Positions 1,024-22,000 of a stretch of DNA of 27,884 nt are shown here, one piece after another. Position numbers and translations under genes: made by a program. This DNA comes from a virus. The notes beneath the pieces are model-generated. The model saw only the letters and a program-made list of their open reading frames with translations. It was not told the DNA's origin and did no database searches. Numbering within the stretch: the stretch's first letter is position 1; every line of letters begins with the position of its first letter. Location: the IMG/VR virus record IMGVR_UViG_3300030118_006529, positions 1 to 27,884 of that record. One strand, 5' to 3'.

Positions 1024-1160
1024 TGGCAGTTCGTTTTAATACAGGTAATAGTATTGAGGGTCGTCCAAAGAAAACAAGACAGGGACGATCTGAACGTACA
1101 AAACTTGCAGCAACCAGTCGAAATGGTCGTAAAAAGAAATATCGCGGTCAAGGTCGATAA
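1023..1160 (+). CDS. 45-aa highly basic protein
   Basis: The start overlaps the previous stop (TAATG), and AAAGGAG at 1007-1013 serves as ribosome-binding site nine bases upstream. Fifteen of 45 residues are Arg or Lys, with no acidic cluster, and Gly, Ser, Thr, Gln and Asn make up much of the rest (GRPKKTRQGRSERTK, then NGRKKKYRGQGR). The composition is that of an unstructured nucleic-acid-binding tail, similar in feel to small ribosomal proteins. It may bind DNA or RNA or fill space in a virion; neither is shown. Its stop overlaps the start of the next gene (TAATG at 1158-1162), so it belongs to the same coupled cluster. Confidence 0.65.
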   Translation: MAVRFNTGNSIEGRPKKTRQGRSERTKLAATSRNGRKKKYRGQGR

Positions 1161-1645
1161 TGTTGAATGAAATGGAACATGATTGTCGGATTCGATTAAA
1201 AGATACTCATTATAAGGAATATTCAAATTATTCCTTACTTGGTTCTGAATCTTATGAAGCATGTGCTAAAATTTACATTCAATACTGTGAGCATAAACAA
1301 TTCGGTGATATGATACCACTCTTCAAGGAGGAGTTCTGTACTGATATCGCTGAAAGAATTGGATACTATGATAAGAGCAATCAACTTTGTGCTTTTACGG
1401 TATCCTTTTTATTTCCGAGTGCAAATTGTGCATATGCGACATATTTTGCATGGGATTATCAGAATCCGAAACTTGGAATGGGTAATATTGCAAATAAAAA
1501 TGAAATTGCCAGATATAAAAGATTAGGTTATGATTACTATTATCTTGGCCCTGCAATGTCATACAAAGAAAAACTTCAAGGATATGAGATTGCAGATGTG
1601 AGTAAGACATATAAATTTGTAAATAATCATATTATTTGGCACTAA
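1160..1645 (+). CDS. GNAT-like protein resembling the C-terminal domain of arginyl/leucyl-tRNA-protein transferase
   Basis: A 161-aa protein whose start overlaps the upstream stop (TAATG). Seen: the C-terminal half reads FAWDYQNPKLGMGN, EIARYKRLGYDYYYLG and MSYKEKLQGYEI. Known: ATE/Bpt aminoacyl-tRNA-protein transferases end with a GNAT-type fold carrying the same order of elements: a strand, 'LG', an Ile-Glu helix, then 'LGx-YYYLG' and 'YK-x-F-x-P-x-E'. The match is in pattern only, because the N-terminal Cys-rich part of canonical ATE enzymes is absent and the protein is shorter than the family's roughly 230 residues. It may transfer an amino acid or acyl group to a protein N-terminus, or simply share the fold. 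It is followed with no gap by the next gene (ATG at 1646). Confidence 0.5.
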   Translation: MLNEMEHDCRIRLKDTHYKEYSNYSLLGSESYEACAKIYIQYCEHKQFGDMIPLFKEEFCTDIAERIGYYDKSNQLCAFTVSFLFPSANCAYATYFAWDYQNPKLGMGNIANKNEIARYKRLGYDYYYLGPAMSYKEKLQGYEIADVSKTYKFVNNHIIWH

Positions 1646-2329: not shown

Positions 2330-2433
2330 AAACTGACACATTATTACGCATTTATCTAGCTGTGAAGAGAAAAGCTCGTAAATTAAAGTATCCACCTGTT
2401 CGGAAACATCATAATATACACACATTCGGATGA
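2326..2433 (+). CDS. 35-aa basic peptide
   Basis: A tiny ORF starting in an ATGA overlap with the upstream stop and ending in an ATGA overlap with the start of speD, so it bridges the two genes exactly. About a third of the residues are Lys, Arg or His (LRIYLAVKRKARKLKY, VRKHHN). An amphipathic basic helix is plausible over residues 5-22. It may be a true peptide or may serve mainly to couple translation into speD, which lacks its own ribosome-binding site. No function can be assigned. Confidence 0.5.
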   Translation: MKTDTLLRIYLAVKRKARKLKYPPVRKHHNIHTFG

Positions 2434-2771
2434 AAAAATTTGAAATGGGACAACATTTGCTTCTTGAGGTCTATGATTGTACCTTTGAGCAGCTAAATTC
2501 GACTCATTTTTTACGTTCAATCTTTACAAAAGCAATTTTACGTTCAGAAATGATAATTTTGAACGAATATACTCATAAATTTAATCCTTGTGGTGTGACA
2601 TTGATGTTTGCACTCGCTGAAAGTCATGTTTCTTGCCATACTTGGCCTGAAGAGGGTTGTTTGAGCGCTGATTTTTACACTTGTGGAGAAAAAGATCCAA
2701 AAATAGCTGCTAAATACATCATTGAGAACTTATATTCGATAGATTATCAAATTCGGACAGTAAAACGGTAA
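2430..2771 (+). CDS. speD: S-adenosylmethionine decarboxylase proenzyme
   Basis: SpeD decarboxylates S-adenosylmethionine to give the aminopropyl donor for spermidine synthesis. Seen: a 113-aa protein with AESHVSCHTWPEEG (residues 63-76) followed by FYTCG (82-86). Known: bacterial class 1b AdoMetDC cleaves itself between Glu and Ser of the ESH motif, and the Ser becomes the pyruvoyl cofactor. Here that is Glu64/Ser65; the processing His is His70 and the catalytic Cys is Cys85, with the same S-(5)-H-(15)-C spacing as the Thermotoga enzyme. The length is slightly short of typical members (about 125-130), but no key residue is missing, so it should be active. speD is a known auxiliary metabolic gene of T4-like cyanophages. 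The start overlaps the upstream stop (ATGA) and has no Shine-Dalgarno sequence. The late promoter of the baseplate genes follows directly. Confidence 0.93.
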   Translation: MKKFEMGQHLLLEVYDCTFEQLNSTHFLRSIFTKAILRSEMIILNEYTHKFNPCGVTLMFALAESHVSCHTWPEEGCLSADFYTCGEKDPKIAAKYIIENLYSIDYQIRTVKR

Positions 2772-2812: not shown

Positions 2813-3205
2813 GTGGCGTCTCGAGCATTCAAAGATATCAACTTATCCTTCAAACGTCATCCTGTGACGAATGATGTATTGACGATCAATGATGAGGATG
2901 CAATTAAAAGATCTGTAAAAAACATAATTTTTACAATTTTAGGTGAAAAACCATTTGAGCCTTTTTTTGGATCAGAGATTAATAATTCTTTATTTGAATT
3001 AAACACATCTTTGAATGAAATAAGAATTCAAGATGAAATTCAATCATCTTTATTGAATTATGAACCAAGAATCGCAAATATTATTGCAACTGTGACAATC
3101 GCACCAGATTCAAATGAAATGAACTGTACGATTCAATATGACATTGTTGGTCTTCCCACACCACCACAACAAGTTGATGTTCTCCTTTTCCCAGCTAGAG
3201 TATAA
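2813..3205 (+). CDS. 25: Baseplate wedge protein gp25
   Basis: Homologue of T4 gp25, the small wedge protein that, together with gp6 and gp53, contacts the sheath and initiates its polymerisation. It is 130 aa against 132 in T4. Seen: SRAFKDINLSFKRHPVTNDV at the N-terminus, then DEDAIKRSVKNIIFTILGEK with the Gly-Glu-Lys-Pro-Phe turn and FGSEINNSLFEL, the hallmark pattern of the gp25/GPW family. The start is GTG: an in-frame TAA at 2807-2809 rules out anything upstream, and GTG gives the usual M-A-S-R beginning. An AGGAAA at 2792-2797 is the only Shine-Dalgarno-like sequence and is rather distant. The stop overlaps the start of gp6 (TAATG), so the two are coupled. It is transcribed from the late promoter at 2780. 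Confidence 0.93.
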   Translation: MASRAFKDINLSFKRHPVTNDVLTINDEDAIKRSVKNIIFTILGEKPFEPFFGSEINNSLFELNTSLNEIRIQDEIQSSLLNYEPRIANIIATVTIAPDSNEMNCTIQYDIVGLPTPPQQVDVLLFPARV

Positions 3206-5265
3206 TGTCTTTCGGTCAATATGTAAATCTAGATTTTGATCAAATCAAAGTGTCTATCAGAGATTATCTGAAGGCAAACACAAATTTTACTGATTATGAC
3301 TTTGAAGGGTCAAACCTTTCAATAATTATTGATGCGTTAGCGTATAATACATATACAACTGCCTACAACACCAATATGGCGGCAAATGAATGTTTTCTTG
3401 ACTCCGCTACACTTCGAGAAAACGTTGTCGCACTTGCTCGAAACATTGGTTACGTTCCAAGATCTCGTAGAGCTTCTCGTGCAAGAATATCTTTTAATGT
3501 AAGTGGTCTGACAGAGACCTCAACACTGACATTAAACTCTGGTATCGTTTGTAATGGTGCTGGTTCAAATACAAACTTCATATTTTGCATTCCAGAGGAT
3601 ATTACAGTTCCTGTTGTTAATGGAGTTGCTCAATTTAATAATATTGAAATTTTTGAAGGTAACTTTGTATCTCAAAGCTTCATTGTAGATACAACTCTAT
3701 TCAATCAAAAATTTATTCTTGATAATTCATTCATTGATACATCAACTATCAAAGTTAAGGTCAAGGCATCAACGACATCGACCTCAACAGTCACTTATAA
3801 ACAAATTGATAATATTGTAGGTATCACTTCAACATCTTCATCATACTTATTACAGGAAGTTGAGGATGAAAGATATGAATTAATCTTTGGTGATAATGTT
3901 ATCGGTAAAAAATTATCAAATAATAATGAAATCACAGTTTCCTATATTGTAACTGAGGGAAGAGATGGAAACGGTGCGTCTGAATTTAGTTTTGTTGGAA
4001 ATATCACAAATCAAGATGGTGCAGTCATTGATGCAAATCTAATATCCCTTGTCACAACAGATGAAAAATCAAGAGATGGTGATGAGATTGAATCAATTTC
4101 TTCAATTAAGTATTATGCACCGAGAATCTATTCTTCACAGTATCGTGCAGTTACTTCATCGGATTACGAATCTGTTTTAGGATTTATCTATCCAAACGTT
4201 GAATCTGTTACTGCTTTTGGTGGTGAAGAGATGAGTCCGCCTCGTTTTGGTAAAGTCTTTATCTCAGTCAAACCTCGAAATGGTGATTTTCTATCTGATG
4301 AGACAAAAAGAGAGCTTGTCCAACGATTAAAGAGTTATGCAGTTGCTGGTATTGTACCAGAGTTTATTGATTTAAAATATCTATATGTTGAACTTCAAGT
4401 TAATGCATATTATAATCCAAGTTTGAATGATGACCCAGAAAATCTCAAAACTTCCGTTTCAAACGCTTTGACTCAGTATTCAAGATCAATTGATATTAAT
4501 AAATTTGGTGGCCGATTCAAATACAGTAAAGCAGTTTCATTAATTGATGGAGTTGATTCATCAATCACATCAAATATTACCTTAGTTACAATTCGACGTA
4601 ATTTAAAAGCAGTCATCGGTCAATTTGCTCAATATGAAATTTGTTATGGTAATCATATTCATAGTCAAGAATCTGCATACAATGTAGTATCAACTGGATT
4701 CACAATTGAAGGTGTAACAGGAACTGTTTATATGGCTGATGAAGTCGTAAATCGTGAAACAGGTCGTATGTTCTTCTTTACATATGATGAAGGAGGAACT
4801 CCAAATATTGTAAAGAAAAATGCTGGAACAGTTAAATATTTGATCGGTGAAGTTCTTATAGATACTTGTAATATCACCTCAACAGTGATTGCGAATGATG
4901 TGATTGAAATTCAAGCAATTCCTCATTCAAATGACGTTGTTGGTCTTCGAGATTTATATGTCAAATTTGATATGTCAAATACAACAATCAATATGGTTCA
5001 AGATTTAATCTCATCTGGTGAGAACACATCTGGATCTCAGTTTGTTCATATTCACAGTTATTATACTCCAACTTTCACAAGGAAATCAAACTCTCCAGTT
5101 GCAACTGGCACCACTTTACTTCCATCAACAGCGACTGGAACTTCAACAACTAGAGCGACTGGTGCAACATACACAACTCCAACTACAACATCAAGTACAA
5201 CCACAAGCAGCACACCTTCATCATCTGGTGGCGGCGGTGGATCTAGCTATGGCGGCGGATATTAA
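3205..5265 (+). CDS. 6: Baseplate wedge protein gp6
   Basis: Homologue of T4 gp6 (660 aa), which dimerises to form the inner ring of the baseplate and joins wedges together. It is 686 aa. Seen: the N-terminus YVNLDFDQIKVSIRDYLKAN followed by FEGSNLSIIIDALAYNTY and LRENVVALARNIGYVPRSRR, the conserved gp6 helical region. A baseplate-J-like core follows, with SSQYRAVTSSDYESVLGFIYP, PPRFGKVFISVKP, and RLKSYAVAGIVPEFIDLKYL. Residues from about 626 to the end are an unusual Ser/Thr-rich, Ala-poor stretch ending in a Gly5 run and SSYGGGY, which is not part of the T4 fold and looks disordered. The gene overlaps gp25 upstream and the giant gp7-like gene downstream by TAATG, giving a tightly coupled 25-6-7 set as in T4 baseplate order. 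Confidence 0.93.
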   Translation: MSFGQYVNLDFDQIKVSIRDYLKANTNFTDYDFEGSNLSIIIDALAYNTYTTAYNTNMAANECFLDSATLRENVVALARNIGYVPRSRRASRARISFNVSGLTETSTLTLNSGIVCNGAGSNTNFIFCIPEDITVPVVNGVAQFNNIEIFEGNFVSQSFIVDTTLFNQKFILDNSFIDTSTIKVKVKASTTSTSTVTYKQIDNIVGITSTSSSYLLQEVEDERYELIFGDNVIGKKLSNNNEITVSYIVTEGRDGNGASEFSFVGNITNQDGAVIDANLISLVTTDEKSRDGDEIESISSIKYYAPRIYSSQYRAVTSSDYESVLGFIYPNVESVTAFGGEEMSPPRFGKVFISVKPRNGDFLSDETKRELVQRLKSYAVAGIVPEFIDLKYLYVELQVNAYYNPSLNDDPENLKTSVSNALTQYSRSIDINKFGGRFKYSKAVSLIDGVDSSITSNITLVTIRRNLKAVIGQFAQYEICYGNHIHSQESAYNVVSTGFTIEGVTGTVYMADEVVNRETGRMFFFTYDEGGTPNIVKKNAGTVKYLIGEVLIDTCNITSTVIANDVIEIQAIPHSNDVVGLRDLYVKFDMSNTTINMVQDLISSGENTSGSQFVHIHSYYTPTFTRKSNSPVATGTTLLPSTATGTSTTRATGATYTTPTTTSSTTTSSTPSSSGGGGGSSYGGGY
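5083..5262 (+). repeat. Low-complexity Ser/Thr/Gly tail of gp6
   Basis: The last 60 codons of gp6 encode a simple-sequence tail dominated by Thr, Ser and Ala, then GGGGGSS and YGGGY. The DNA is a run of ACA/ACT/TCA codons followed by GGC/GGT codons, locally less AT-rich than its surroundings. It is likely a flexible appendage. Confidence 0.75.
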
Positions 5266-5960
5266 TGATTGATACCTCAATACAAAGAGTCGAGATAAAT
5301 CAGGTAATTGAAAATCAGTTACCTGAATTTGTGCAAACAGAAAGCCCACTTTTTGTGGATTTCATGAAGCAATACTATATTTCACAAGAATTTCAAGGTG
5401 GATCCATAAATGTTGCTGAAAATTTAGACAGATATACTAAACTTCAAACCTTTGTTGGTGCTGCGCTGACAGAATTTACTGGATTATCAACAGATACTCA
5501 GTCTTTTTCAAGCACAATTTTCGTTGATAGTACAAAAGGTTATCCAAATAAGTATGGATTACTTAAAATTGATGATGAAATCATTACATATACAGGAATT
5601 GGTACGACTTCATTCACAGGTTGTGTCCGTGGATTTAGTGGAGTTAATGCATTAAGACAACCAACAAAACCAGACGTTTTAGATTTTAAAACTTCAGTTG
5701 GTGCTGCACATACTGGTGGAACTAAAGTTCATAATTTATCAAATATCTTCATTCGTGAATTTTTTAGAAAACTAAAAACTACTTTTGCAAGCGGATTTGA
5801 AAATCGTAAATTAGATAGTGATCTAGATCAAATTAAATTTATTCGACAAATTAAAGATTTTTATCGAACAAAAGGAACAGAGGAATCATATAAAATTTTA
5901 TTCAGAGCATTATATGGTGAAGAAGTTAATATTATCAAACCATCAGAGTTTTTAATCAAA
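5265..5960 (+). other. gp7 core region within the giant protein
   Basis: The first ~230 codons carry the part recognisable as T4 gp7. It is split by a small inserted unit at about residues 81-136 (KIDDEIITYTGIGTT, then GCVRGFSG), a module that recurs in other forms at about 14635-14815 and, in the DUF4815 protein, near 25440-25590. After TKGTEESYKILFRALYGEEV the similarity to T4 fades. In T4 this sequence is near the C-terminus of gp7, so the order is inverted: core first, extension after. Confidence 0.65.
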
Positions 5961-8900
5961 CCATCTGACGCAGATTATGGATTCGCACAAGATTTTGTAG
6001 TTAAACCAATTACAGGAGATCCACGAAATTTAAAAGGATCAACACTTTTTCAAGATAAAGATGAAGATGATATCAACATTCAAGGTGCTTCAGGTGCGAT
6101 ATCAGATGTAAAAGACTTTTTATATGGCGGAGAGCATTACTATCAGATTAGTGTATCACAAGATTCAATTGATGGTAATTTTATACTTCCAGGCAGAACT
6201 CGTGTGGTAAATCAAGTTACTATTGGTTCGACTGTAATGACAGTTGATACAACAGTTGGATTCCCTACAAGTGGTTCTTTATCTTTACCAAGTGCAACCA
6301 CAGCGGGTATTGTAACTTATACTAGTAAAACATCAAATCAGTTTGTGGGATTACCAACAGCTGTTGATGTTTTAAATGTTGGTGATGATGTCAGATATAA
6401 TAATGTCGCTTACGGATATTCATTTGCAAATAATACTAAAAAGATTGAGGTATTAATTACAGGTGTTTTAAAAGATTTTCCAATACCAGACGAAACTTTT
6501 TACTTTAATAAGGGAGATAAAGTCAAAGTTGGTACATTTGGTATTAACAAGAGTTCTGAAGATGCTAACTTTGGATCATGGGTCTATAATACAACAGTCA
6601 AATTTACACCAAAAACTGTTACAAGACAATCAAGTAGTAGTTTTAGAATTGTAACACCATCAGATCATGGTCTTTTAGAGGAAGATACTGTTGAAGTTTT
6701 AGATGGTCAATCATTACTATCTGGAGTTGGTCGTGTTCTGAGTGTTATTAGTGGTTCAACTTTCATTGTAGGTGATTTGCCTGGCGTTGGTGTAAATAAT
6801 TTTGCATTTATAAGAAGAAGACTTAAAAGAGGAAACAGTTCATTACACGATAATATCACAAAATATACAACTGATGTTCAAAACGTGTATGATCATGAAA
6901 GTGATAATGCATTTGCACTACCTCCACATCCTCACGCATACGTCACATCACCCTCTTTACCAAGTTTAGCTAACGAACCCATCGTTGCACCAGATCGGTC
7001 TGTAACATGGACTGGCGCGACTGGCGGCGACGTTATACAGTTAATACAGGTTACAGAAGGTGCATCAGATCATGGATTCTACTCTGGAGAAGTTGTTACT
7101 TATAACGTCGTTAGTGGATTCTTAGGGCAACTGATTGATGGTAAAAATTATTATGTAAGTCGTGTAAGTTCTAATAATATTCGTCTTGCAAACTCATTAC
7201 CTGATTTAATTAATGGTGATTTTGTAGATGCAACTGGAAACGGAACATTTAAAATTTCTGTTCCAGAACTTGCAAATAAAAAACTAGAACATCAAAAATT
7301 ATTAAAAAGAATATCTCTCAATCCACTCTTTGATGGGGCAAAGCGTGAGACAACGCCAGGCACCACTGGCATCCTCGTAAATGGTACAGAGATATCAAAC
7401 TATAAGTCTGGTGATGTTATTCAATTTGGTGGTATTGAATCAGTAGATGTATTGGAAGGTGGATCACAATTTGATGTGATTACACCACCAACAGTGTCTA
7501 TTGAAAGTTTAACTGGTGCTGGTGTAAGTGCAACAGCAAACGTAAAAGGTTCTCTAGAAAGAATTGATATCATAGATCCAGGCTTTGATTATGTTGAACC
7601 ACCAACTATCGAAATTACTGGTGGAAATGGTGTAAATGCTATTGCAAGATCAAGATTAAAACAGGTTGATCATTTTATTGATTTTGATGCATCATCAACA
7701 GGTAATGCAATTAATATTGCTGACGATACGATTGGTTTTGGAACATTTCATAAGTTTCGTGATGGAGAGGCTGTAGTCTATAAAACCTTCAATACTGGTG
7801 CAATTGGTATTGCAAGCGCTGGTATTACCACAACTGCAATTCAACTTAATCCAGATCAAAGACTTGTTGATGAATCAATTTATTTTGTATCCAAAGTTAA
7901 TAATACAACTATTAGACTTGCAAATAACGAAAATGATGCTATCACAAAATCAAATTTACTTAATCTTACTGGATTTGCAGATGGATCACAAAGATTTCAA
8001 AGCTTAAGAAAGAAATTTATTTTAGGTCAGATTATTATCGATAATCCTGGCGAAGGATATGAAAATAAAAGAAGATTAGTCGCCACATCTGGTATTAATA
8101 CATATTCTGATTTTATTGAATATAAAGATCATGGATTTAAAGATGGTGAGATAGTTAGATATTCACACTCAGGAATCGGACTTACAATCGGAGGACTTGA
8201 TACAGATCAAGATTATTATGTTTTAAAAATAAGTGATGATAGATTCCGACTTGCCTCTGCTGGAATTGGAACTACTTTATCTAATGCAAATTATTTAACT
8301 AAACAATTTGTTGGATTAACATCAGTTGGTTCTGGAGAACATATATTTAATTATCCTCCAATAGTTGTTAATGTTAAAGGAAAGATTGGAATTAATACAG
8401 TTCATCCAGAAAATTATCATGCAAAAGTCAATCCAATTGTAAGAGGTTCAATCACATCAATTAATGTTGAGAAGCCTGGAATTGGATATGGTAATGATTC
8501 AACATTTAATTTTAGTATTCCTCCTCAAGTTCGTGTTTCCTCTGGATCATCATCAGAATACAAAGCTATTGTTACAAACGGAAGAATACAATCTGTAATT
8601 GTGACTCGTTCTGGTGGTGAATACACATCTGCTCCTGATTTGAAAATTTTAGGTGATGGTGTTGGTGCAAAAATAATATCATCAATTAGTAATGGAAGTG
8701 TTGATCAAGTTACTGTTGATAATGGTGGTGTTGGTTATTCAACAGCTACCGTTGGAGTTGAAGAAATAATTCCTGGCACAGGTGCTGTTTTCTTACCTAA
8801 AATTAGATCTTGGGCAGTTAATAACGTTAAAAGATATGAAGATATATTTTATGATGATGATGGATTTTTATCTAGAGGTGATAATGATGAGGGTATTAAA

Positions 8901-11900
8901 TTCACAGCATTTTATGCACCTAGAGGTTTAAGAAAAGTTTTAAAACAAAAAAATAGTGATGGAACAGTTGATTATACATCAAATGATTTAAATATTCTTA
9001 ACAATGCAGAACAAGTTTCTTTAAATCATTCACCGATTATTGGATGGGCTTATGATGGTAATCCAATTTACGGCCCTTATGGATATGATCGTAAAGATGG
9101 TGGTGTTGTAAGAATTATGAGATCTGGTTATGTTCTTAAAACAAGCAGAGAGAATGGGCCACCAATATCAGAATTTCCTCTTGGATTCTTTGTAGAAGAT
9201 CATGAGTATCTTGGAAATGGTGATCTTGATGAAAATAATGGAAGATATTGCATCACTCCAGATTATCCAAAAGGAACTTATGCTTATTTTGCAACAATTA
9301 ATCCAAATGAAAATGAAACTAGTGGAACATTTAAAAACTTTAGATCTCCAGTTTTTCCATATTTAATCGGTGAAAATTATGCTGCAAAACCTGATGAGTT
9401 TAATTTTATTGAAACAAATAATCAAGATTTAGATTTAAACACTCTCAATTTAAGAAGAAACACAAATCCATATAAGTTAGATGGAGCGGGATCTGAATAT
9501 GAAGGAATACACGATAGTCGAAAGATTGTTGATCAGGAGATTGAGATTAATTATGCATCGCCAGGTAGGATTAATCAATTTGAAATACTAAGTTCTGGAT
9601 CTGGTTATCAAGTTAAAGATCCATTAAGAGTTCAAAATTTAGGAAAAGGAAATGGTTTTTCTGGTGAAATTTCTAGAGTTGAAGGAAAGGAAATTGTATC
9701 CATAGCCTCAACTGTGGTTAAAATTGAAAATCTAGTATTTTCATATAATAATTCAAATGGACAAATTACAGGACTCTCATCTCAACCACACGATTTGGTT
9801 GTTGGTGATGTTGTAACCATTTCAGGATTATCAACTGACTCTTTGAGAAAATTAGATGGCAGACATCAAATTGGATTTAATACATCATTCTTACTTTTAA
9901 ATACAGGAATTGGAACAACTGGATCTACAGGTATAGTCACAAGCTTGTCAGTCACAGGTGACTTATCTAGAAATGCAATTGCACCGAATGATGTTTTAGG
10001 TATTAATACTGAAAGATTTTTAGTTCTTAATGTTGATGATGTTAATGATAAAGTTAGGGTCAAAAGAGAATTTGATGGTGTTTTAGGAACTGCTCATACA
10101 AGTACATCTCTAATTACATCTTTAAATCGTAGCATTACTTTTAATTTAGGTATTAATACTGATATTCAAACAAGAGTTAATATACCATACTTTTTCAATC
10201 CAATCGAGAGTGTTTCATTAGGAGAATCAGCTGGCGTTGGTATTGGATCAACAATTAGATATTCATTTAAAGTTGTGGGTGGTGCATCTACAGAAAGGTT
10301 CATTCCAACTCAAAATATTTTCTTACAGAATCATGGATTTGAAACTGGCGAAAAGCTTCTATATTCTAGTGGTGAAGGAACTTCACTTTTAGTTTCAAAT
10401 GGCATATCTACATTTAATCTAACTAATAATTCCCCTGTATTTGCAATTAATTTAGGTAAAGATTTACTTGGCATATCAACAAATCCATTAGGTATCGGAT
10501 CAACAGGATCTATTACAGGTATAGGATCAACTGCATATCAATTATTCTTTAAAGGTCACGGAACTGGACAGATTCATAGCTTAAAACCACAAAAAACTGA
10601 AATCACTGGTTTTGCTGAAAAAGTTGTTGGAACTGTTGTTTGTAAAGAAGCACACCAATTGATAGCAAATGATCGTGTTAGATTAAATGTAACGCCAGGT
10701 ATTACAACCACATTTAATGTTCAGTTTGATGATACCACTCGCAGAACATTTATTAATCCAATTAATTTTGGTGCTTCTTCTGTTGATATAACTAAAGATC
10801 AAATTACAATTCCAAATCACGGATATAAAACAGGCGATAAAGTTCTTTATAAATCATCGAATCCAGCAAATCCACTTTTTAATAACTTCACTTATTTTAT
10901 TGTTAGAATTGATAAAAATACAATTAAATTATCTGAAACTAACTTTAAATCTAAAAAATTAATACCTGATTGTATTTCACTTACATCTACAGGATCTGGT
11001 CATACAATTGCTTTAATTAATCCACCTCTATCACTTACTCGTGGATATAAAGTTGGATTTGCTGTATCTGACACATCTCTTACACAAGTCGTATCAGGAA
11101 AAAGAACACAGGTATTTGATTTTGAATTATTCAGAGATACAAACTTTACAAATCCATATTTTAATAATAAAGAGGATGGAGGATTTCAAGTTGTAGGTGT
11201 TGGAACTGTTGGTGTTACAACAACTGCAAGAGTAGATCTTTCTGTTACAGAAAATACTCCAATAGATCTTTTTTATAAATTAACACCTGTCAATTTAAAT
11301 ATTAATGCTCCATTTAAGAGAGATCCAATTGTTGATACTGATGTTATTAATTACAGTAGTTTAAAAATATCAGACAGTGTTTATAATGGTGATTTTGCAA
11401 TCACAGGAATTGGAAGCACAACATTCTCATTTGTTTTACCATCACAACCAGAAAAAGATGGCTATACTAAGGAGGAAGCTACTAAACTATCTTATTCAAC
11501 ATCTTCTGTAAGTGCAATAGGTGCCATTAATAATATTAGAATTATATCAAAAGGAAGAAATTATAAAACAATTCCTGTTGTTACTTCAATCGGATCAACA
11601 CTTGGAGTTGGTGGTGTTATTAGATTGAATAGTAATGAAACTGGTAAATTAAGAAGATATACAATTAAAAATCTTGGATTTGATTATTCAGCAGATAAAA
11701 CAATACAACCATCTGTTCAATTACCACAAATTTTGAGATTGGATCGATTATCCAAAATTGCAAACATTGGAATTAGTTCTGGTGGTAAAAATTATCTTGA
11801 ACCACCAAATGTTTTAGTGATTGATCGTGTAACTGGATTGATCAAAAATGAAGTTATAACAGCTGTTGATGTGCAAGGAACATCTGTTTCCGAAGTTAGA

Positions 11901-14900
11901 CTTTTAAGAAATACGAACTCCTTATATGATACAAATCCAAGAATTATTGCTACAAATAATAATAACGGAATTAAAGTTAAAAATCTATCATTTACAGGTG
12001 GAACAAATTTAGTTACTTTGACTCTTGAGGGTGCATATGATTCAACAACATATCCATTTACTCTTGGTGAAAAATTATATGTAGAAAATATTGGTATCGG
12101 ATCCACTGGAAGTGGATTTAATTCATCAGATTACAACTATGAACCTTTCGTAATTACTGGTGTTAATACAAATCCAGGCGGAGGAAATGCGACTGTTTCA
12201 TATAATTTAGATTCATCAGTCACAAGCCCAGGCATCTTTAGTGGCCCCTCATCATCAGGACAAGCAATACCTTTTGAAAATATAGCGCAGTTTAATATTG
12301 ATGTTGATACAAATCAATTTAGTGTTGGTGAAACTGTAAGCACAGGTGATAAAATTGGAACTGTTGTTGCTTGGAATGAGAATAATAAGTATCTTAAAGT
12401 ATTATCAAATGATACCTTTAATGTTGGTGAATCAATTAATGGTTCATCATCAAAATCTATCGCATTGATTGAACAGACAACTAAATTTAACTCAGTATTT
12501 AATATTGATTCTGACTCTGAATTTAGAAGTGGTTTCCGCAAAGAAACTGGAAAATTAAATACAGAATTACAAAAACTTGCAGATAATGATTATTATCAAA
12601 TATTCTCATATTCATTAGGTAGTCCAATTTCATATGATACATGGAAAGATCCAGTCAATAGTTTAGGTCATGTTGTTGGATTTAGAAATTTTGCTGATGT
12701 CAGCGTCGTTTCTACAGCTTCAACTGATGATAAGAATCGAAGAAATGCATCTGTTGGAGTTTCTTCATCAGTTGCAGTGGTCGTTGCTGATTTAGTGAGT
12801 GAAAAAGAATCATTACATAATTATTACGATTTTGATTTAGTTACAGAAAATTCTAAGAATATTGCTGGATTATTTGCATCTGATGAAATTAGTTTTGGTA
12901 ATCGAATCTTAACTGATTATATTGAATCAAGAACTAACAGAGCAATTACAATCGATAGCGTAAGTTCTGAGTTTAATGATCTACCTCGAGCAACTGCATT
13001 CTCTGATGTATTTGCTATCGATCTAGATGACATTGATGGAATTAAGTTTTATGTTATGGTGTTTGATACTCGATTCTCAGGAGAGAAAGAGATTATTCAA
13101 ATTAATTTACTTCATGATGGATCTCTTGGATACATGATGCCGTTTGGTCGTGTTGAAACTGCGATTGATCTTGGTGAATTTGACTTTAGTGTTTCGGGAA
13201 CTACAGGAAATCTGAGATATCTTCCAGCTAAATCTAAATTTAATAACTATGCATTAAGAATATTTGCGATTGAAACATTTAAGGATTCTCAAACTGGTAT
13301 CAGCACACTATCACTTGGAACAGGATATGACATTATTTCTACCTCATCTGGTATTGGATCTACAGATCCATCTCCAGTTCAAGTTGTGGGATTTGGAACC
13401 ACTGCGATCACAACCTCCAAATTATTCATTCAAACACAGGAACTTGATGGAGATCAAAGAACTCAATTAAATGAGTTGGTCGTTCTTAATGATAGTGAAG
13501 AAGTATATCTTTTAGATTATGCACAGATGATTAATGAGAATACCTCTCAAAGTAATTCTCCAAATGTGGGTCTTGGAACATTCGGTGCAGATGTAAGATC
13601 AGGAATCACAAGTGTATATTTCACACCTACGACTGGTGTTGGTGTTACAATGAGAGTTCATCAGGTAGCAATTGGAGGGACTGCAACTGGAATCGGAAGC
13701 ACAACCATATCACTGACTGAAGTATTAACCACAACTACAGATATCGCAGCAACAGGAACTCCACAACCAACAAGAATCAGTGGAATTAATTCTAATACAT
13801 ACACTGCTTTTGATGCGTTAATTGAAATACATGACACAACAAATGATCGATATGCTGTAACTCAAGTGACTGCAATTCATGACACCATCACTCCTCACTT
13901 TACAGAGTTTGGTTACATGGATAACTTCTCCACTAACGTTACTAGTTTCTCTGGTATTGGAACTGTTGGTGTTGGATATTCATCTGTAACTGGTGGTGAT
14001 ATTGAACTTCGTTTAACTCCTCCAGCAAATACAGCCATTACAACTAAGGTATTCCAGTATAACTTTAATGAGACTGGAACTGGTGGTGTTGGATTAGTCA
14101 CATTCACAGACTCTAGATTAAAATCAGCTGAGGGTAATTACACTGGAACTGAAAATGACGTTAAGTTCTCATTTAATCTTAAGCATACTGGAGACTCAAT
14201 TTTCCATAAAACATTTGATTCTGAAGATGCGTCAGTTGTTGATGTAACAAATAATACATTTATAGTTAATAATCACTTCTTCCAAACTGGTGAAGAATTA
14301 ACATATAATCCAATTGGTTCAGGAACAACCATGAACATTGGAATTGCAGCTACATCAATTAGTGGAATCGGTGTCACAACTAAATTACCACCAACAGTTT
14401 TTGCAGTCAAGATTGCAGAAAATAAATTCAAGGTTGCAAGAACCGCAGCAGAAGCTCTTCAAAATGTTCCTAAAGTTCTTGATCTTACAACTGTTGGTGT
14501 TGGAACCACTCAATCATTTACTGCTAAAAATCTTAATTCTAAGGCTCTTATTACTCTTGACAATAACATTCAAAGTCCTGTTATTCAATCTCCTGTTAAT
14601 ACAAAATTATCTTTTGATGCCTTAACAACAACTGACTTTGTAACATTAACAGGTATCTCATCATTCTTCTCTGGTGATGTAATTAAAGTAAATGATGAGT
14701 TTATGAAGATTGATACAGTCGGTATCGGATCTACAAATCAACTTCTTGTGAAGAGAGCTCAATTAAATTCAGCTCTTGCAAATCATAGTGCTGGTGATAC
14801 TGTCACTAAATTCTTAGGAAATTATCAAATAGTTAAGGATACAATCAACTTTACAGATGCACCAAAAGGTGAAAAAGGCCCATCTGGTTTGACCACAACA

Positions 14901-17438
14901 TCTACTTTCGTTGGTCGTGTATTTACACATACTGGTATTCCTGGCGGAACTCAAGAAACTTATTCAAATAATTTTGTATTTGATACTTTTGAAAATCAAT
15001 TTACAGGAATTGCAACAAACTTTATTTTGAAATCTGGTGGTTCAGATGTAACTGGATTTGCAACAAATACAGGTGTTTTACTTCTAAATGAAATCTTCCA
15101 GAATCCAAATGATGATTATAATATTGTTGAAACTGCTGGTATTACATCTGTGAGTTTTACAGGTGTGGGTGTAACAAACAGTTATGATGTAAATGTCTCA
15201 TCAGTTCCTAGAGGTGGTGTTATTGTATCAGTTGGAGAGAGTGAATCATTTGGTTATCAACCATTAGTTGCAGCTGGTGGAACTGCAATTGTATCTTCAG
15301 CTGGCACAGTAACATCAGTATCAATTGGCAATAGTGGATCTGGGTATCGTGTTGGATTACAAACTAATATTCTTGTGAGAGCCGTTACAAGTTCTGGTGT
15401 TACAACAATTGGTAAAGCAAATGTTAGTGCTGGTTTAGTTACATCTGTCACAATTACAAGTGGTGGATCAGGATTTAATCAATCATTACCACCAACTCTT
15501 GAATTTGAAAAACCACTTAACTATGAAAATATAAGATTAGTGGGTAGTACTACAGGTATTGGTGCATCAGTATCAATTCGTGTTGGAACTGCATCAAGTA
15601 TAATCAGTTTTGATATCACAAACTTTGGATATAATTATAAAATTGGTGATGTTCTAACTGTTGAAAGAGGTGGTCAAGCTGGTATTCCTACCGACGCCTC
15701 TGCTGGATCTACATTTAAATTATTCAATCTAACTGTTATTGATGTCTTTAATGATAGTTTTGCTGGATTTACATTTGGTGAATTAGAGAAGTTGAATACA
15801 TTTGAAGATTTATTTGACGGTACTAGAAGAACTTTCCCACTTACAAAAACAATCGGTGCAGCTGAAACTCCAATTACATTAAGATCTGCATCAGGATCTC
15901 CAATTCGTGTTGAAGATAACTGTTTAGTATTTTTAAACGATATTCTTCAAGTTCCTAGTGAGAGTTATGCCTTTAATGGTGGATCTCAAATTACATTCTC
16001 CGAAGCACCAAAATCTGATGATAAAGTAAGAATTTACTACTATCGTGGATCTGATCATGATGTAATTGATGTTGATATTTTAGAAACAGTTAAAACTGGA
16101 GATAAATTAACGATTAACAAATATCCTGATGTTGGTTTAGATGATGTATTCCAACAGGAACCAAGAACAGTTACAGGTATTACTACATCTGATACCGTAA
16201 CAACTAACACCTACATCGATGCTGGTATCACAACAGTTAGAACACTTCAAAGACCAGTTACATGGAAGAAACAAATACAAGATGTAGTTGTTAATAATAT
16301 TGGAATTGGTAAAGATAGAGTTGAATTAGAGCCTGGCATTCGACCAACTGCTTTTATTATTAAGAGTGTATCTGCTGGATCAACCGAAGTATTTACAGAT
16401 ACAGCAGTTCCATTGTTTAATCAAGTTGATGATATTGTTGAAGTTAGACAAGGTGCATTAATCCTTGATCGAACAACTAAAACAGGGGTGGCTGCAACCG
16501 CAGTTGTTTCTGTTGCTGGCACAATATCAAGTGTTGTGATATCTGATGGTGGATCAGGTTACACTGCCGCACCACATGTTTCGATTGGTGTAACTGCTGG
16601 AATTGGAACTGTTCATGCTGGAATTGGAACAACATCTGCAAATGCAACAGCTGTTGCGACTGTATCAGGTGTTGGAACAATATCTGCAATTTCAGTTGTC
16701 AATGCTGGTTCTGGATATACCAGCACAAATCCACCAATTGTGATGATTGAACCAGAATCTATCACTCAAAATACTTTAACAAGTATCAAGTATCAAGGTG
16801 ATTTTGGTGACATAGTTGGAATTGCAACTACAGCAGTGGCTGGAATTGGAACAGCACTGCAACTTGATCTCTATATTCCAGATACATCCATTCTTCGTGA
16901 TACATCAGTTGTCGGAAGTGCCGTAACTGTAAGTGGTATTGCATCTGGATATTACTTTACTGCATTTGATACAAATGTTGGTAACGGAGTGACCTCATAT
17001 GAAAGTGGAATTGGAAATGATAATGGTGTGGTGGGAGCTGGAACAGTTCATATAGATAATATATACAGGGTTCATAGTGTTAAAAACATAGTTGGGCCTG
17101 CCCTCTTATCCACTGGAGTTGGTAACACTGGTCTAACAAGGGTAACTGTGAGTGTTGATAATCTTGAGGGTATTGTCAGACCTGTTGGTGTTGGAACAAC
17201 TCAATCAATAGGTAATGGGTCAGGTATCACAACGACTGTTGTAAATCCATACGTCAGTGATACTGGTGGTAATGGTGTTAGTCCTCTTTATTATGGTAAG
17301 TTCTCTTGGGGTCGTTTGCATGATTTTGTTACAACAAATGAAATTGCATTCACCGCAATTACTGATGATGGAGTCACAGGAATCAAAACTGGCCCTGTGA
17401 TTATTAGAACAAGGGATTTAAAAGAGTCCTTTACATAA
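5265..17438 (+). CDS. 7: Giant gp7-like baseplate wedge protein (4057 aa) with repeat modules
   Basis: It lies exactly where T4 gene 7 lies, between 6 and 8. Residues 10-60 (ESPLFVDFMKQYYISQEF) and about 157-229 (FIREFFRKL, then DFYRTKGTEESYKILFRALY and GEEVNI) match what I recall of the C-terminal part of T4 gp7 (1032 aa). T4 gp7 is the wedge initiator that binds gp10 and gp8. The rest, about 3,800 residues, is an extension. It holds eight or more 'HGF-TGE-V-Y / YYV / RLA' modules, about 14 GGSGY modules, at least 15 G-[IVF]-G-[ST]-T motifs, and a YHYH-type domain (about 1255-1376). Further modules are a 'YYQIFSYSLGSP' unit (about 2437-2482), an 'ILTDYIESRTNRAI' unit (about 2550-2680) and an 'FDGTRRTFPLT' unit (about 3515-3598). 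The C-terminus carries YYGKFSWGRL. I see only about five Cys. No signal peptide or membrane helix. It probably forms a long peripheral arm of the baseplate. The start overlaps the gp6 stop (TAATG). Confidence 0.85.
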   Translation: MIDTSIQRVEINQVIENQLPEFVQTESPLFVDFMKQYYISQEFQGGSINVAENLDRYTKLQTFVGAALTEFTGLSTDTQSFSSTIFVDSTKGYPNKYGLLKIDDEIITYTGIGTTSFTGCVRGFSGVNALRQPTKPDVLDFKTSVGAAHTGGTKVHNLSNIFIREFFRKLKTTFASGFENRKLDSDLDQIKFIRQIKDFYRTKGTEESYKILFRALYGEEVNIIKPSEFLIKPSDADYGFAQDFVVKPITGDPRNLKGSTLFQDKDEDDINIQGASGAISDVKDFLYGGEHYYQISVSQDSIDGNFILPGRTRVVNQVTIGSTVMTVDTTVGFPTSGSLSLPSATTAGIVTYTSKTSNQFVGLPTAVDVLNVGDDVRYNNVAYGYSFANNTKKIEVLITGVLKDFPIPDETFYFNKGDKVKVGTFGINKSSEDANFGSWVYNTTVKFTPKTVTRQSSSSFRIVTPSDHGLLEEDTVEVLDGQSLLSGVGRVLSVISGSTFIVGDLPGVGVNNFAFIRRRLKRGNSSLHDNITKYTTDVQNVYDHESDNAFALPPHPHAYVTSPSLPSLANEPIVAPDRSVTWTGATGGDVIQLIQVTEGASDHGFYSGEVVTYNVVSGFLGQLIDGKNYYVSRVSSNNIRLANSLPDLINGDFVDATGNGTFKISVPELANKKLEHQKLLKRISLNPLFDGAKRETTPGTTGILVNGTEISNYKSGDVIQFGGIESVDVLEGGSQFDVITPPTVSIESLTGAGVSATANVKGSLERIDIIDPGFDYVEPPTIEITGGNGVNAIARSRLKQVDHFIDFDASSTGNAINIADDTIGFGTFHKFRDGEAVVYKTFNTGAIGIASAGITTTAIQLNPDQRLVDESIYFVSKVNNTTIRLANNENDAITKSNLLNLTGFADGSQRFQSLRKKFILGQIIIDNPGEGYENKRRLVATSGINTYSDFIEYKDHGFKDGEIVRYSHSGIGLTIGGLDTDQDYYVLKISDDRFRLASAGIGTTLSNANYLTKQFVGLTSVGSGEHIFNYPPIVVNVKGKIGINTVHPENYHAKVNPIVRGSITSINVEKPGIGYGNDSTFNFSIPPQVRVSSGSSSEYKAIVTNGRIQSVIVTRSGGEYTSAPDLKILGDGVGAKIISSISNGSVDQVTVDNGGVGYSTATVGVEEIIPGTGAVFLPKIRSWAVNNVKRYEDIFYDDDGFLSRGDNDEGIKFTAFYAPRGLRKVLKQKNSDGTVDYTSNDLNILNNAEQVSLNHSPIIGWAYDGNPIYGPYGYDRKDGGVVRIMRSGYVLKTSRENGPPISEFPLGFFVEDHEYLGNGDLDENNGRYCITPDYPKGTYAYFATINPNENETSGTFKNFRSPVFPYLIGENYAAKPDEFNFIETNNQDLDLNTLNLRRNTNPYKLDGAGSEYEGIHDSRKIVDQEIEINYASPGRINQFEILSSGSGYQVKDPLRVQNLGKGNGFSGEISRVEGKEIVSIASTVVKIENLVFSYNNSNGQITGLSSQPHDLVVGDVVTISGLSTDSLRKLDGRHQIGFNTSFLLLNTGIGTTGSTGIVTSLSVTGDLSRNAIAPNDVLGINTERFLVLNVDDVNDKVRVKREFDGVLGTAHTSTSLITSLNRSITFNLGINTDIQTRVNIPYFFNPIESVSLGESAGVGIGSTIRYSFKVVGGASTERFIPTQNIFLQNHGFETGEKLLYSSGEGTSLLVSNGISTFNLTNNSPVFAINLGKDLLGISTNPLGIGSTGSITGIGSTAYQLFFKGHGTGQIHSLKPQKTEITGFAEKVVGTVVCKEAHQLIANDRVRLNVTPGITTTFNVQFDDTTRRTFINPINFGASSVDITKDQITIPNHGYKTGDKVLYKSSNPANPLFNNFTYFIVRIDKNTIKLSETNFKSKKLIPDCISLTSTGSGHTIALINPPLSLTRGYKVGFAVSDTSLTQVVSGKRTQVFDFELFRDTNFTNPYFNNKEDGGFQVVGVGTVGVTTTARVDLSVTENTPIDLFYKLTPVNLNINAPFKRDPIVDTDVINYSSLKISDSVYNGDFAITGIGSTTFSFVLPSQPEKDGYTKEEATKLSYSTSSVSAIGAINNIRIISKGRNYKTIPVVTSIGSTLGVGGVIRLNSNETGKLRRYTIKNLGFDYSADKTIQPSVQLPQILRLDRLSKIANIGISSGGKNYLEPPNVLVIDRVTGLIKNEVITAVDVQGTSVSEVRLLRNTNSLYDTNPRIIATNNNNGIKVKNLSFTGGTNLVTLTLEGAYDSTTYPFTLGEKLYVENIGIGSTGSGFNSSDYNYEPFVITGVNTNPGGGNATVSYNLDSSVTSPGIFSGPSSSGQAIPFENIAQFNIDVDTNQFSVGETVSTGDKIGTVVAWNENNKYLKVLSNDTFNVGESINGSSSKSIALIEQTTKFNSVFNIDSDSEFRSGFRKETGKLNTELQKLADNDYYQIFSYSLGSPISYDTWKDPVNSLGHVVGFRNFADVSVVSTASTDDKNRRNASVGVSSSVAVVVADLVSEKESLHNYYDFDLVTENSKNIAGLFASDEISFGNRILTDYIESRTNRAITIDSVSSEFNDLPRATAFSDVFAIDLDDIDGIKFYVMVFDTRFSGEKEIIQINLLHDGSLGYMMPFGRVETAIDLGEFDFSVSGTTGNLRYLPAKSKFNNYALRIFAIETFKDSQTGISTLSLGTGYDIISTSSGIGSTDPSPVQVVGFGTTAITTSKLFIQTQELDGDQRTQLNELVVLNDSEEVYLLDYAQMINENTSQSNSPNVGLGTFGADVRSGITSVYFTPTTGVGVTMRVHQVAIGGTATGIGSTTISLTEVLTTTTDIAATGTPQPTRISGINSNTYTAFDALIEIHDTTNDRYAVTQVTAIHDTITPHFTEFGYMDNFSTNVTSFSGIGTVGVGYSSVTGGDIELRLTPPANTAITTKVFQYNFNETGTGGVGLVTFTDSRLKSAEGNYTGTENDVKFSFNLKHTGDSIFHKTFDSEDASVVDVTNNTFIVNNHFFQTGEELTYNPIGSGTTMNIGIAATSISGIGVTTKLPPTVFAVKIAENKFKVARTAAEALQNVPKVLDLTTVGVGTTQSFTAKNLNSKALITLDNNIQSPVIQSPVNTKLSFDALTTTDFVTLTGISSFFSGDVIKVNDEFMKIDTVGIGSTNQLLVKRAQLNSALANHSAGDTVTKFLGNYQIVKDTINFTDAPKGEKGPSGLTTTSTFVGRVFTHTGIPGGTQETYSNNFVFDTFENQFTGIATNFILKSGGSDVTGFATNTGVLLLNEIFQNPNDDYNIVETAGITSVSFTGVGVTNSYDVNVSSVPRGGVIVSVGESESFGYQPLVAAGGTAIVSSAGTVTSVSIGNSGSGYRVGLQTNILVRAVTSSGVTTIGKANVSAGLVTSVTITSGGSGFNQSLPPTLEFEKPLNYENIRLVGSTTGIGASVSIRVGTASSIISFDITNFGYNYKIGDVLTVERGGQAGIPTDASAGSTFKLFNLTVIDVFNDSFAGFTFGELEKLNTFEDLFDGTRRTFPLTKTIGAAETPITLRSASGSPIRVEDNCLVFLNDILQVPSESYAFNGGSQITFSEAPKSDDKVRIYYYRGSDHDVIDVDILETVKTGDKLTINKYPDVGLDDVFQQEPRTVTGITTSDTVTTNTYIDAGITTVRTLQRPVTWKKQIQDVVVNNIGIGKDRVELEPGIRPTAFIIKSVSAGSTEVFTDTAVPLFNQVDDIVEVRQGALILDRTTKTGVAATAVVSVAGTISSVVISDGGSGYTAAPHVSIGVTAGIGTVHAGIGTTSANATAVATVSGVGTISAISVVNAGSGYTSTNPPIVMIEPESITQNTLTSIKYQGDFGDIVGIATTAVAGIGTALQLDLYIPDTSILRDTSVVGSAVTVSGIASGYYFTAFDTNVGNGVTSYESGIGNDNGVVGAGTVHIDNIYRVHSVKNIVGPALLSTGVGNTGLTRVTVSVDNLEGIVRPVGVGTTQSIGNGSGITTTVVNPYVSDTGGNGVSPLYYGKFSWGRLHDFVTTNEIAFTAITDDGVTGIKTGPVIIRTRDLKESFT
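7432..7655 (+). repeat. GGSGY modules 1-2 (giant gp7-like protein)
   Basis: Two consecutive units: IESVDVLEGGSQFD with PPTVSIESLTGAG, and LERIDIIDPGFDYVEPPTIE with TGGNGVNAIA. The unit consensus is Ile-x-Ser-Val-x-Ile-x-x-Gly-Gly-x-x-Tyr, a Pro-Pro, a Val-x-Ile strand and a Gly-Ala-rich end, about 35-40 residues. Confidence 0.7.
8448..8800 (+). repeat. GGSGY modules 3-5 (giant gp7-like protein)
   Basis: Three units in a row: ITSINVEKPGIGYGND, IQSVIVTRSGGEYTSAPDLK and VDQVTVDNGGVGYSTATVGV, each ending in a Gly/Ala segment. They directly precede the YHYH-type domain. Confidence 0.7.
9020..9395 (+). other. YHYH-type domain embedded in the giant gp7-like protein
   Basis: Seen, in order: SPIIGWAYDGNPIYGPYGY, then LGNGDLDENNGRYCITPDYP, GTYAYFAT and VFPYLIGENY. 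Known: the YHYH family (named for a C-terminal Tyr-His-Tyr-His) has the same order of DG-x-PIYGP, D-x-x-NG, P-x-G-x-Y-x-Y and a final FPY-x-x-G. The namesake histidines are replaced here (YAYFAT). Function of the family is unclear; in phage virions it is probably a binding or display domain. Confidence 0.7.
11525..11830 (+). repeat. GGSGY-family modules, divergent set (giant gp7-like protein)
   Basis: Three diverged units: INNIRIISKGRNYKTIPVVT, LRRYTIKNLGFDYSADKTIQ and IANIGISSGGKNYLEPPNVL. A single similar unit occurs earlier at about 9568-9675 (INQFEILSSGSGYQVKDPLR). Confidence 0.6.
15308..15685 (+). repeat. GGSGY modules, third cluster (giant gp7-like protein)
   Basis: Units VTSVSIGNSGSGYRVG, VTSVTITSGGSGFNQSLPPT and a weaker IISFDITNFGYNYKIGDVLT. 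The first two are among the cleanest copies, nearly identical over their first seven residues. Confidence 0.7.
15806..16060 (+). other. 'FDGTRRTFPLT' structural module of the giant protein
   Basis: Seen: FDGTRRTFPLTKTIG, then NCLVFLNDILQVPSESYAFN and GSQITFSEAPKSDD followed by VRIYYYRGSD. This order is a recurring unit of large tail and baseplate proteins of marine phages, probably a beta-sandwich. One copy is seen here. Confidence 0.55.
16527..16760 (+). repeat. GGSGY modules, fourth cluster (giant gp7-like protein)
   Basis: Two clean copies, ISSVVISDGGSGYTAAPHVS and ISAISVVNAGSGYTSTNPPI, separated by a Gly/Ala/Thr-rich linker with AGIGTVHAGIGTT. Confidence 0.7.
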
Positions 17439-19034: not shown

Positions 19035-22000
19035 ATGCCACAGGAAACCAATCTTAACGTCAGCCCATATTTTGACGATTTTGATAAAAATAAAAATTTT
19101 TATAGAGTTCTTTTTAAGCCTGGATCTCCAGTTCAAGCAAGAGAACTAAGCACTCTACAATCGATTTTACAAAATCAGATTGAACAATTTGGTACTCATT
19201 TTTTCAAAGAGGGCTCAAAGGTAATTCCAGGCAACTTAAGTTATGATAATAATTTTACATGTGTTCAAATTGAAGATGCATTCTTAGGTATTCCAGTTTC
19301 TTTATATTTTGATCAATTAATTGGACGGAGAATCACAGGCGCAAGATCTGGTGTAACTGCAACAATTAAAAAAATATTATCAAAAGAAGATTCTGATAGA
19401 GGAAATATAACTCTCTATATTAAATATGAAAAATCTGGTGATGATTTTGCAACTGAAAAATTTGAGGATGGAGAAAGTTTATCTGCAAATACAGATATAG
19501 TTTTTGGTGCGAGTGTTATTTCTGCAAATGAACCTTTTGCAAATACGTTGGCATTCGGTGCAACTGCAACTGGATCTGCAATGTCAATCGGAGAAGGTGT
19601 ATATTTCATTCGTGGAACTTTTGCTCAAGTTCAAAGTGAAACTTTAATTCTAGATCAATACAGTGGAACTCCATCATATCGTATTGGATTTGATGTTCAA
19701 GAGGAATTTATTAGTGCTGATGAAGATCCATCATTGAATGATAACGCATCAGGATTTACAAACTTTGCAGCGCCAGGTGCTGATCGTCTTCAAATCAATA
19801 TTAGTTTGATGAAGAAGAATCTTGATGATACAAATGATCAAAACTTTATTGAAATTGCTCGTGTTCAAGCTGGTGAATTACAAACATTTGTAAAAGATAC
19901 ACAATATAATCTTCTTAATGATAGATTGGCGAGAAGAACATATGATGAATCTGGAGATTATTATGTAAGACCTTTTGAAGTTTTTGCAAAAGAATCATTA
20001 AATGATTCAATTGGAAATAAAGGTATATATTCATCAGAACAAAAAACAACCGAGGGTAACATACCTTCAAAAGATTTAATGGTGATGCAGATATCGCCTG
20101 GAAAAGCGTATGTAAAAGGATATTCAATTGAAAAAATTGCGACTGGATTTATTGATGTTCCAAAACCAAGAACAACTAAAACAGTTGAACAAGAAGCTGT
20201 AAGTTATACAACTGGTGATCCATTGTTTGTAAATAATGTATTTGGATCTCCAAGTTTAGGAATCGGAACAACTGCAACAGTATCTTTAATTGATAGAAGA
20301 AGAGGAAATAGTGGATCTGAGATTGGACTTGCAAGATTATATGATTTTAAAGCACAATCTGCAAGTTTTGTAAATGAAACAACTCAATATGAGACTCGTT
20401 TGTTTGACGTTAAAACTTTTACAAATATTCAAGTTGGAACTGCATTTACTTCTTTATTAGCTGGATCTCATATTCAAGGTGCGAGAAGTGGATCAACAGG
20501 ATTTGTAAGAGCTGATCGTACTAATAGCGCTCACTTTGTTTTAAGTGACGTTTCTGGTAAATTTATTAAGGACGAATCTATCATAGTTAATGGTGTTCAG
20601 AATGGAAGAGTAATTATAAAAGTCGATTCTTTTGGATTTAATGATGTTAAGTCAATAAAAAGTGCCGTCGGTGTATCAACATTTGAAGCAGATGTTTTAC
20701 TTGACATGGGATCTAAACTCACTAATTTGATCTCTGGTAATTTAAGATTAAGTAATACTTCAGGAAATACTGGAATCATCACATCATCTGGACAAAATTT
20801 TGTTGGACTTATAACTGCAAATAATATTGTAAGTTATAGTGTGCCTGGCGAAACTGTTCCAAGATTTAATCGCATTACTGGAGTTTCAACTGATGGTACT
20901 CAGATAAATGTTGCTGGTATTACATCAGTAGCTGGTATATGTAATGGTGGTGTTTTAGACGGATTAATTCCTGGCTCACTTGATGTTAATGATCTTTTCC
21001 TTCGTAGAACAAGTTTTGAAATAAGTGAAAATAGTCTTTTAACACCTGTTAGACATAATAATATTGAAAGTTTAGATGTAACTACAACTACAGTTCAACT
21101 TAGAAAACAATTTAGCGATATTACGGTTGCCAATAATTCTTTTACATCTCCGACTGCTGGTGCAGATTTATTCTTCCAACCGTTTGATGAGGAAAGATAT
21201 TTTATATCATATAATGATGGATCTATTGAACCATTAAAAGAGAGTCAAGTAACAATTGCTGCAGATAAAAAAACAGTATCATTTGTTGGATTAAGTAGTG
21301 TTTCAGGAAAAGCAAATTTATTTGCAACGGTGTTAAAGAGTAAAGTTAAAAATAAACTTAAAAAATTAAATGATGCGAATGTAATTAATATTACTAGATC
21401 AAGTTTAGCTGCATCTGGTATTGGCACTAATAGTTTAAATGATGGTTTAACATTTAATCGTGTGTTTGGAACAAGAGTTCAAGATCGTAAAATTTCTCTA
21501 AATGTTCCTGATGCAGTTCAATTACTTGGTGTATTTGAATCAAATGATGCTGGTGATGCTGATCTACCATCATTAACCTTGACTGCGTATTCAGGGCCAA
21601 GTGGAAATAATTCAGATTTAATCGCTGGTGAGAAGATTACAGGGTTAGACAGTAATGCCATTGCAGTTGTTGTTGAAAAACCATCAACAACAACTCTCGG
21701 AGTTGTTTTATTAAATCAAAATCAATTTGCTATTGGTGAAACTGTTAAAACTGAAAGATCAGGTATCACTGCTCTAATAACTGATCAAACTTCTGGTGAT
21801 CGTAATATTACAAATCAATATCTTTTAAATACAAATTATAAACCAACTTATTATGATTTCTCTTTCATAGAAAGAAAAAAAGTTTTTGAAGCACCTACAA
21901 ATCGACTAAAAGTTGTATTTAAAAACTTCTTTGTTACATCAGACGATACTGGTGATTTCTTTAATGCATCCAGTTATCCAACAGATTCTAAAGAATTAAT

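Follow-up and report, generated by a model that had tools for sequence, protein, structure and literature searches.

A putative one-domain protein of the ATE_C branch of GNAT enzymes, encoded directly before a phrog_3704-family gene in a T4-like virus

In aminoacyl-tRNA-protein transferases (ATE/Bpt), the ATE_N domain (PF04376) is the part that binds zinc and substrate. PMC2922099 places ATE, the Fem ligases and MprF in one branch of the GNAT enzymes. According to PMC10115844, the tRNA contacts of yeast ATE1 are residues 109–146 (helix f together with the beginning of helix g), 170–178, 257–271 and 299–304, as well as Tyr22, the main contact being helix f (alpha-f), which docks into the tRNA acceptor stem. 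Among phage proteins, Rac of phiKMV-like phages is described as a predicted Gcn5-related acetyltransferase linked to a change of a host protein (PMC7552054). No paper on a phage ATE was among the hits listed in a literature search that covered few subscription journals.

The window, i.e., the whole analyzed stretch of 27,884 nucleotides of the IMG/VR virus record IMGVR_UViG_3300030118_006529, contains genes gp25 and gp6 of the baseplate wedge (Table 1), by which the locus is assigned to a T4-like phage. The product of gp6 is closest to gp6 of Synechococcus phages, with a best identity of about 55% in tblastn, and the virus is therefore related to Kyanoviridae. Two giant ORFs, 5265–17438 (4057 aa) and 19035–26594 (2519 aa), are also located in the baseplate region; the former follows gp6, where a baseplate wedge initiator is named in cyanophage records. 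No tRNA genes were found in the window or in the seven loci scanned.

Table 1. Positions of the ATE-like gene, its segments and the neighboring genes in the window
Feature	Positions	Strand	Evidence or remark
phrog_516 basic peptide gene, 45 aa	1023..1160	+	E 8.5e-20; recurrent upstream neighbor
ATE_C-like single-domain GNAT (predicted), 161 aa	1160..1645	+	PF04377 E 5.4e-7, AF2 model, fold matches
N-terminal strand CRIRLKDTHYKE, residues 9–20	1184..1219	+	mostly invariant in the family; alignments A8, A9
Segment YFAWDYQNPKLGMGN, residues 95–109	1442..1486	+	gap-free alignment to yeast ATE1 257–271, a tRNA-contact region according to PMC10115844
E115 codon	1502..1504	+	Glu in 16/16 members of A9
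YLGPAMSYK, residues 128–136	1541..1567	+	YLG and YK shared with ATE
Partner gene, phrog_3704 family, 227 aa	1646..2329	+	phrog_3704 E 7e-52
speD, S-adenosylmethionine decarboxylase	2430..2771	+	PF02675 2.5e-30
gp25 and gp6, baseplate wedge genes	2813..5265	+	phrog_261 1.6e-46; tblastn of gp6 to cyanophage gp6

The ORF which a preceding sequence-only reading had placed at 1160–1645 coincides exactly with a frame that begins with ATG and is open throughout. The two stretches in which that reading had seen the GNAT half of ATE/Bpt enzymes, LGYDYYYLG and MSYKEKLQGYEI, are residues 122–130 and 133–144, and the match to ATE_C (PF04377) covers residues 38–144 of the window protein and positions 5–120 of the 122 of the profile. 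This match, with a score of 30.7 bits, is above the cut-off of 25 and is the sole Pfam match up to E 10. Tyrosine accounts for 19 of the 161 residues; since neither the reversed copy nor four shuffled copies (five in all) gave an ATE_C match, composition is not the cause of the match. The NCBIfam arginyltransferase models also matched the protein, with scores far under their cut-offs. In alignment A3, all 18 members matched ATE_C (best 1.1e-7) at a threshold of E≤1, which may admit members under the Pfam cut-off; among the divergent members, L223 is over this cut-off (1.8e-7, 32.2 bits), and L030 (7e-5, 23.9 bits) and L226 (0.001, 20.1 bits) are under it. The PDB profile search with the family profile placed five ATE1 sequences first (4.9e-7 to 2.2e-5), followed by avidin at 0.8; nothing except ATE1s was found below E 0.5, and FemX, MprF/L-PGS and Sba18/Sbb17 gave no sequence match. 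Comparison of the phage family with bacterial ATEs by hhalign gave E-values of 2.3e-5 and 2.7e-5 (probability 75.9 and 74.5), and none of the PHROG families matched the window protein below E 0.36. The relationship to ATE_C to which these profiles point is strong.

The AF2 model based on the phage-only alignment is poor (pLDDT 51.9); acetyl-CoA GNATs lead its PDB matches (PCAF/GCN5, about E 5e-4), and no ATE1 was present among the best 50. With 17 bacterial ATE fragments added, pLDDT was 84.4 and pTM 0.78; these rows may steer the confident model, of which the sequence-profile evidence is independent. Foldseek matches of the latter model began with three ATE1s (1.4e-5 to 1.7e-5), after which further ATE1s were interspersed with NMT and other GNATs. 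The best 50 entries of VIA-align included MprF, L-PGS, FemX and the aminoacyl-tRNA peptide synthases Sba18/Sbb17 (Z 13–15), with many rows of the CoA enzyme NMT or acetyltransferase VipF and no ATE1. A GNAT fold is predicted for the window protein by both models, including the low-confidence phage-only one, and not a different fold. Accordingly, Pfam, the PDB profile search, hhalign and the predicted fold agree with the earlier proposal of a stand-alone, phage-encoded protein like the GNAT half of ATE/Bpt.

The same fold would be expected of an ordinary CoA-dependent GNAT, which would acetylate or acylate a protein or a small molecule and have only ancestry in common with ATE_C. The acetyl-CoA enzymes leading the matches of the phage-only model and the high rank of NMT and VipF in VIA-align are in line with this, as are weak matches to Acetyltransf_6 in 5/18 members of A3 (best E 0.033). 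However, the sequence profiles point to ATE, and the motif [QR]xxGx[GA], the pyrophosphate-binding loop of acetyl-CoA GNATs, from which some CoA GNATs may deviate, is absent from all 11 phage rows in a search run with no CoA enzyme as a positive control. A CoA-dependent enzyme is a possible but minority explanation. Another kind of acyltransferase, the second option of the sequence-only reading, is possible.

The tRNA-acceptor pocket, the inspection of which had been proposed along with the sequence-only reading, has its counterpart in part: the regions corresponding to yeast residues 257–271 and 299–304 are present in HMMER alignments; helix f, Tyr22 and the Cys cluster are absent. In ATE rows the tRNA-stem helix comes after the N-terminal strand, where a 12-column gap was found in 11/11 phage rows, its identification with helix f resting on a separate mapping of the yeast helix to bacterial ATE; the model contains no predicted helix at residues 16–28. 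In ATE, both Tyr22 and the Cys cluster lie in the N-terminal part, which the phage protein is without; one aligned Cys is present instead of the cluster, and C9 of the window protein lies in an ATE Cys column. ATE_N was not matched at E≤1 in any of 13 records, all fragments, the record of the window included. This domain would not fit into the window ORF, and the in-frame open stretch upstream of the ATE-like gene is shorter than 15 codons in 14/16 loci and comprises at least 15 codons in 2/16. Between YLG and YK, six residues of the ATE loop are absent.

The 17 bacterial ATEs, which are mostly from Rhizobiales, have 50 invariant columns, some of which may therefore not be general to ATE; 10 of the 50 are kept in 11/11 phage rows, 7 are gapped and 33 are changed or mixed. 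A wider ATE set (n = 15) has 25 invariant columns, nine of which, matched by hand, are among the ten kept. Residue E115 is aligned with Asp277 of Saccharomyces cerevisiae ATE1 (numbered by counting along the HMMER alignment), with Glu of K. lactis ATE1 and with His in 17/17 bacterial rows of A8. Judged by its sequence, the phage protein is not a canonical ATE/Bpt, and it should not be filed as such because three defining features that were tested were not found.

In comparison with nine loci (L006–L014), dN of the ATE-like gene of the window is 0.054–0.080 at a near-saturated dS of 1.22–1.59, which corresponds to dN/dS of about 0.04–0.06; dN is 0.036–0.057 for phrog_3704 and 0.38–0.43 for gp6. 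The ATE-like gene and phrog_3704 of the window are under strong purifying selection, and the ORF 1160–1645 is therefore a real gene. The pair, about 90% identical beside gp6 of about 50% identity, was first taken as a recently transferred, mobile two-gene cassette. Recent transfer was rejected because synonymous sites are near saturation and strong constraint explains most of the identity pattern. The two genes also separate, since their identities diverge in L016, L021 and L022, in which phrog_3704 is 92–93% identical to that of the window and the ATE-like gene 63–65%; this is an apparent allele replacement.

A non-catalytic relative, i.e., a GNAT scaffold or a binder of tRNA ends regulating the partner or the charged tRNA, would suit the finding that many ATE-invariant residues, as well as the tRNA-docking helix, have been lost. 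However, 39 positions, many of them polar or aromatic, are invariant across 16 members with identity down to 43%, and the low dN/dS against the nine loci also argues against such a protein, which is quite unlikely.

The family is represented by 104 loci from uncultured ocean phages, all of them in IMG/VR contigs: 23 loci of the window type or near it (L030 included), 79 of the shorter L030 type, and L223 and L226, in which the ATE-like gene occurs in other settings than in the remaining loci. In the scan for the L030 type, 80 of 87 confirmed loci were kept, one of which had already been counted, and seven were left out. Over the eight genes that were compared, locus L001 is identical to the window. 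Three members were searched by tblastn in 50,697 phage records: two, including the window protein, had no match at E≤1, and the third had one chance-level row (E 7). The closest viral relative among the matches listed is A0A6J7WRI5 in BFVD, an uncharacterized protein from an uncultured Caudovirales phage with 37% identity and TM 0.81/0.91; at 143 aa, it corresponds in size to the L030 type.

Among bacteria, the family profile had matches in 2 of 200 Pseudomonadota genomes (E 1.2e-4 and 0.003), and a scan of bacterial genome contigs with phage-family patterns of the N-terminal half gave 41 pattern matches with no relative among them. Canonical ATE patterns gave 15 stretches in viral contigs, none of them a relative. 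A yeast ATE1 fragment matched 76 named-phage records at E≤10; the two significant ones are both contigs named Acinetobacter phage MD-2021a and carrying an annotated arginyltransferase, which we take to be host sequence. A Bernardetia protein annotated as DUF952 (L045:463–1524) contains an ATE_C-like part that lacks the Cys cluster, with an additional part at its C-terminus.

The strongest context signal, absent from the sequence-only reading, is the coupled partner gene, which in the window begins directly after the stop codon of the ATE-like gene. A partner is located directly downstream in 104/104 loci, which are related and do not represent independent events; it is phrog_3704 in 102 loci (spacing of tblastn matches from −10 to +14 nt) and phrog_3577 in two (+7 in L223, −14 in L226). 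Upstream, phrog_516 and a gene weakly similar to glycosyltransferases are recurrent; speD, gp25 and gp6 are often found downstream, speD being frequent but not constant (14/23 loci, some of them incomplete). The phrog_10325 protein follows the pair in L030 (1623–2114) and directly precedes the ATE-like gene in L226 (7616–8068). Small SET-domain proteins are encoded at L223:1407–1820, near the ATE-like gene, and at L033:3639–4013.

The gene phrog_3704 was found in 112 named-phage records, in none of which tblastn gave a credible hit for the ATE-like protein, and the ATE_C profile found no match in 6/6 named-phage records searched. It therefore seems that the enzyme depends on the partner, and not the reverse. 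In public phage records phrog_3704 is annotated as PurM, phosphoribosylaminoimidazole synthetase or ferredoxin, labels perhaps taken from neighboring genes; in Pfam, the window copy has a sub-threshold Ig-like match and the L030 copy a sub-threshold match to CARDS D2 trefoil (E 0.0012). Genes preceding phrog_3704 were viewed in 19 of the 112 records. A swappable modifying enzyme in this place was suggested by SET-domain proteins in Sf-CH1b and S-B05 (a small one, in the place of the ATE-like gene), by a gene annotated as ferredoxin in S-8S56 and by the 2OG oxygenase of P-RSM4; the idea is weak because an RNR subunit, glycine dehydrogenase, peptidase, a TiaS-named gene, DenV and others are found there too. 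For phrog_3577 (L226:8492–9139, L223:2941–3600), the pattern VRPIYN..GMG + NIEF...IEIHLR recalls, in our view, ATP-grasp ligases; this assignment by an eye-level motif was rejected, as Pfam gave no match for phrog_3577 and the PDB none of significance.

Tagging of host proteins for the N-degron pathway had been considered in the sequence-only reading. In a canonical form of it, Arg or Leu would be added to N-termini and the proteins then destroyed by host ClpS and Clp protease. Such tagging is disfavored and very unlikely: it would fit the ATE_C homology and, if the host is cyanobacterial, the control genome of Synechococcus elongatus, which has ClpS and is not among the ATE_C matches listed, but ATE_N and the tRNA-stem helix are missing, 40 of the 50 bacterial-ATE-invariant columns are not kept, no ClpS gene was found in 17 family-bearing records (fragments), and the close linkage to a single phage gene points to a dedicated, not a broad, substrate.

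The best explanation of the locus, about as likely as not, is a putative minimal one-domain GNAT of the ATE/aminoacyl-tRNA-transferase branch that would act together with its coupled partner or upon it; action like that of an aminoacyl-tRNA transferase is perhaps an even matter. The phage protein would bind charged tRNA mainly at the CCA end and transfer its aminoacyl group to the amine of a protein. The role of the partner, which is phrog_3577 in two loci and phrog_3704 in the others, would be that of the substrate or of the missing subunit holding the substrate or tRNA; a fixed neighbor does not prove partnership, and the 104 loci are related. A basic (Arg-like) amino acid may be the one transferred, since the position aligned with yeast ATE1 Asp277 is Glu in every member compared; we infer that this position would read a basic amino acid, for which the literature consulted offers no support. 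Against the minimal-transferase explanation stand the small share of ATE-invariant columns kept, the absence of helix alpha-f, Y22 and the Cys cluster, the bacterial ATE rows in the confident model, the poor phage-only model with acetyl-CoA GNATs at the head of its matches, the lack of ATE1 among the best 50 VIA-align entries, the failure to find a tRNA gene in the window or the seven loci, and an hhalign probability of only about 75%. Its most specific form, a two-gene module in which a minimal ATE_C enzyme with charged tRNA (Arg-like) adds an amino acid to the partner, or in which the partner is a detached acceptor-binding subunit, would represent virus-encoded tRNA-dependent protein modification outside the N-degron pathway and is, in all its details, unlikely.

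If active, the protein would be a very small tRNA-dependent enzyme forming amide bonds, would prove ATE_N dispensable for the function of an ATE_C core, and would allow viruses to modify proteins with amino acids diverted from translation. The family recurs across IMG/VR contigs, yet the window protein has no PHROG family below E 0.36 and no tblastn match among named phages.

Among the known systems, Rac of phiKMV-like phages is similar as a phage-encoded GNAT and is likened here by description only. The aminoacyl-tRNA GNATs FemX, MprF/L-PGS and Sba18/Sbb17 are akin to the phage model in fold and are larger proteins. ATE1/Bpt differs from the phage protein in the presence of ATE_N, the Cys cluster, the tRNA-stem helix and a longer loop, but is similar to it in the significant ATE_C profile match, the GNAT core, the YLG...YK motif and the yeast-like YFxWD segment.
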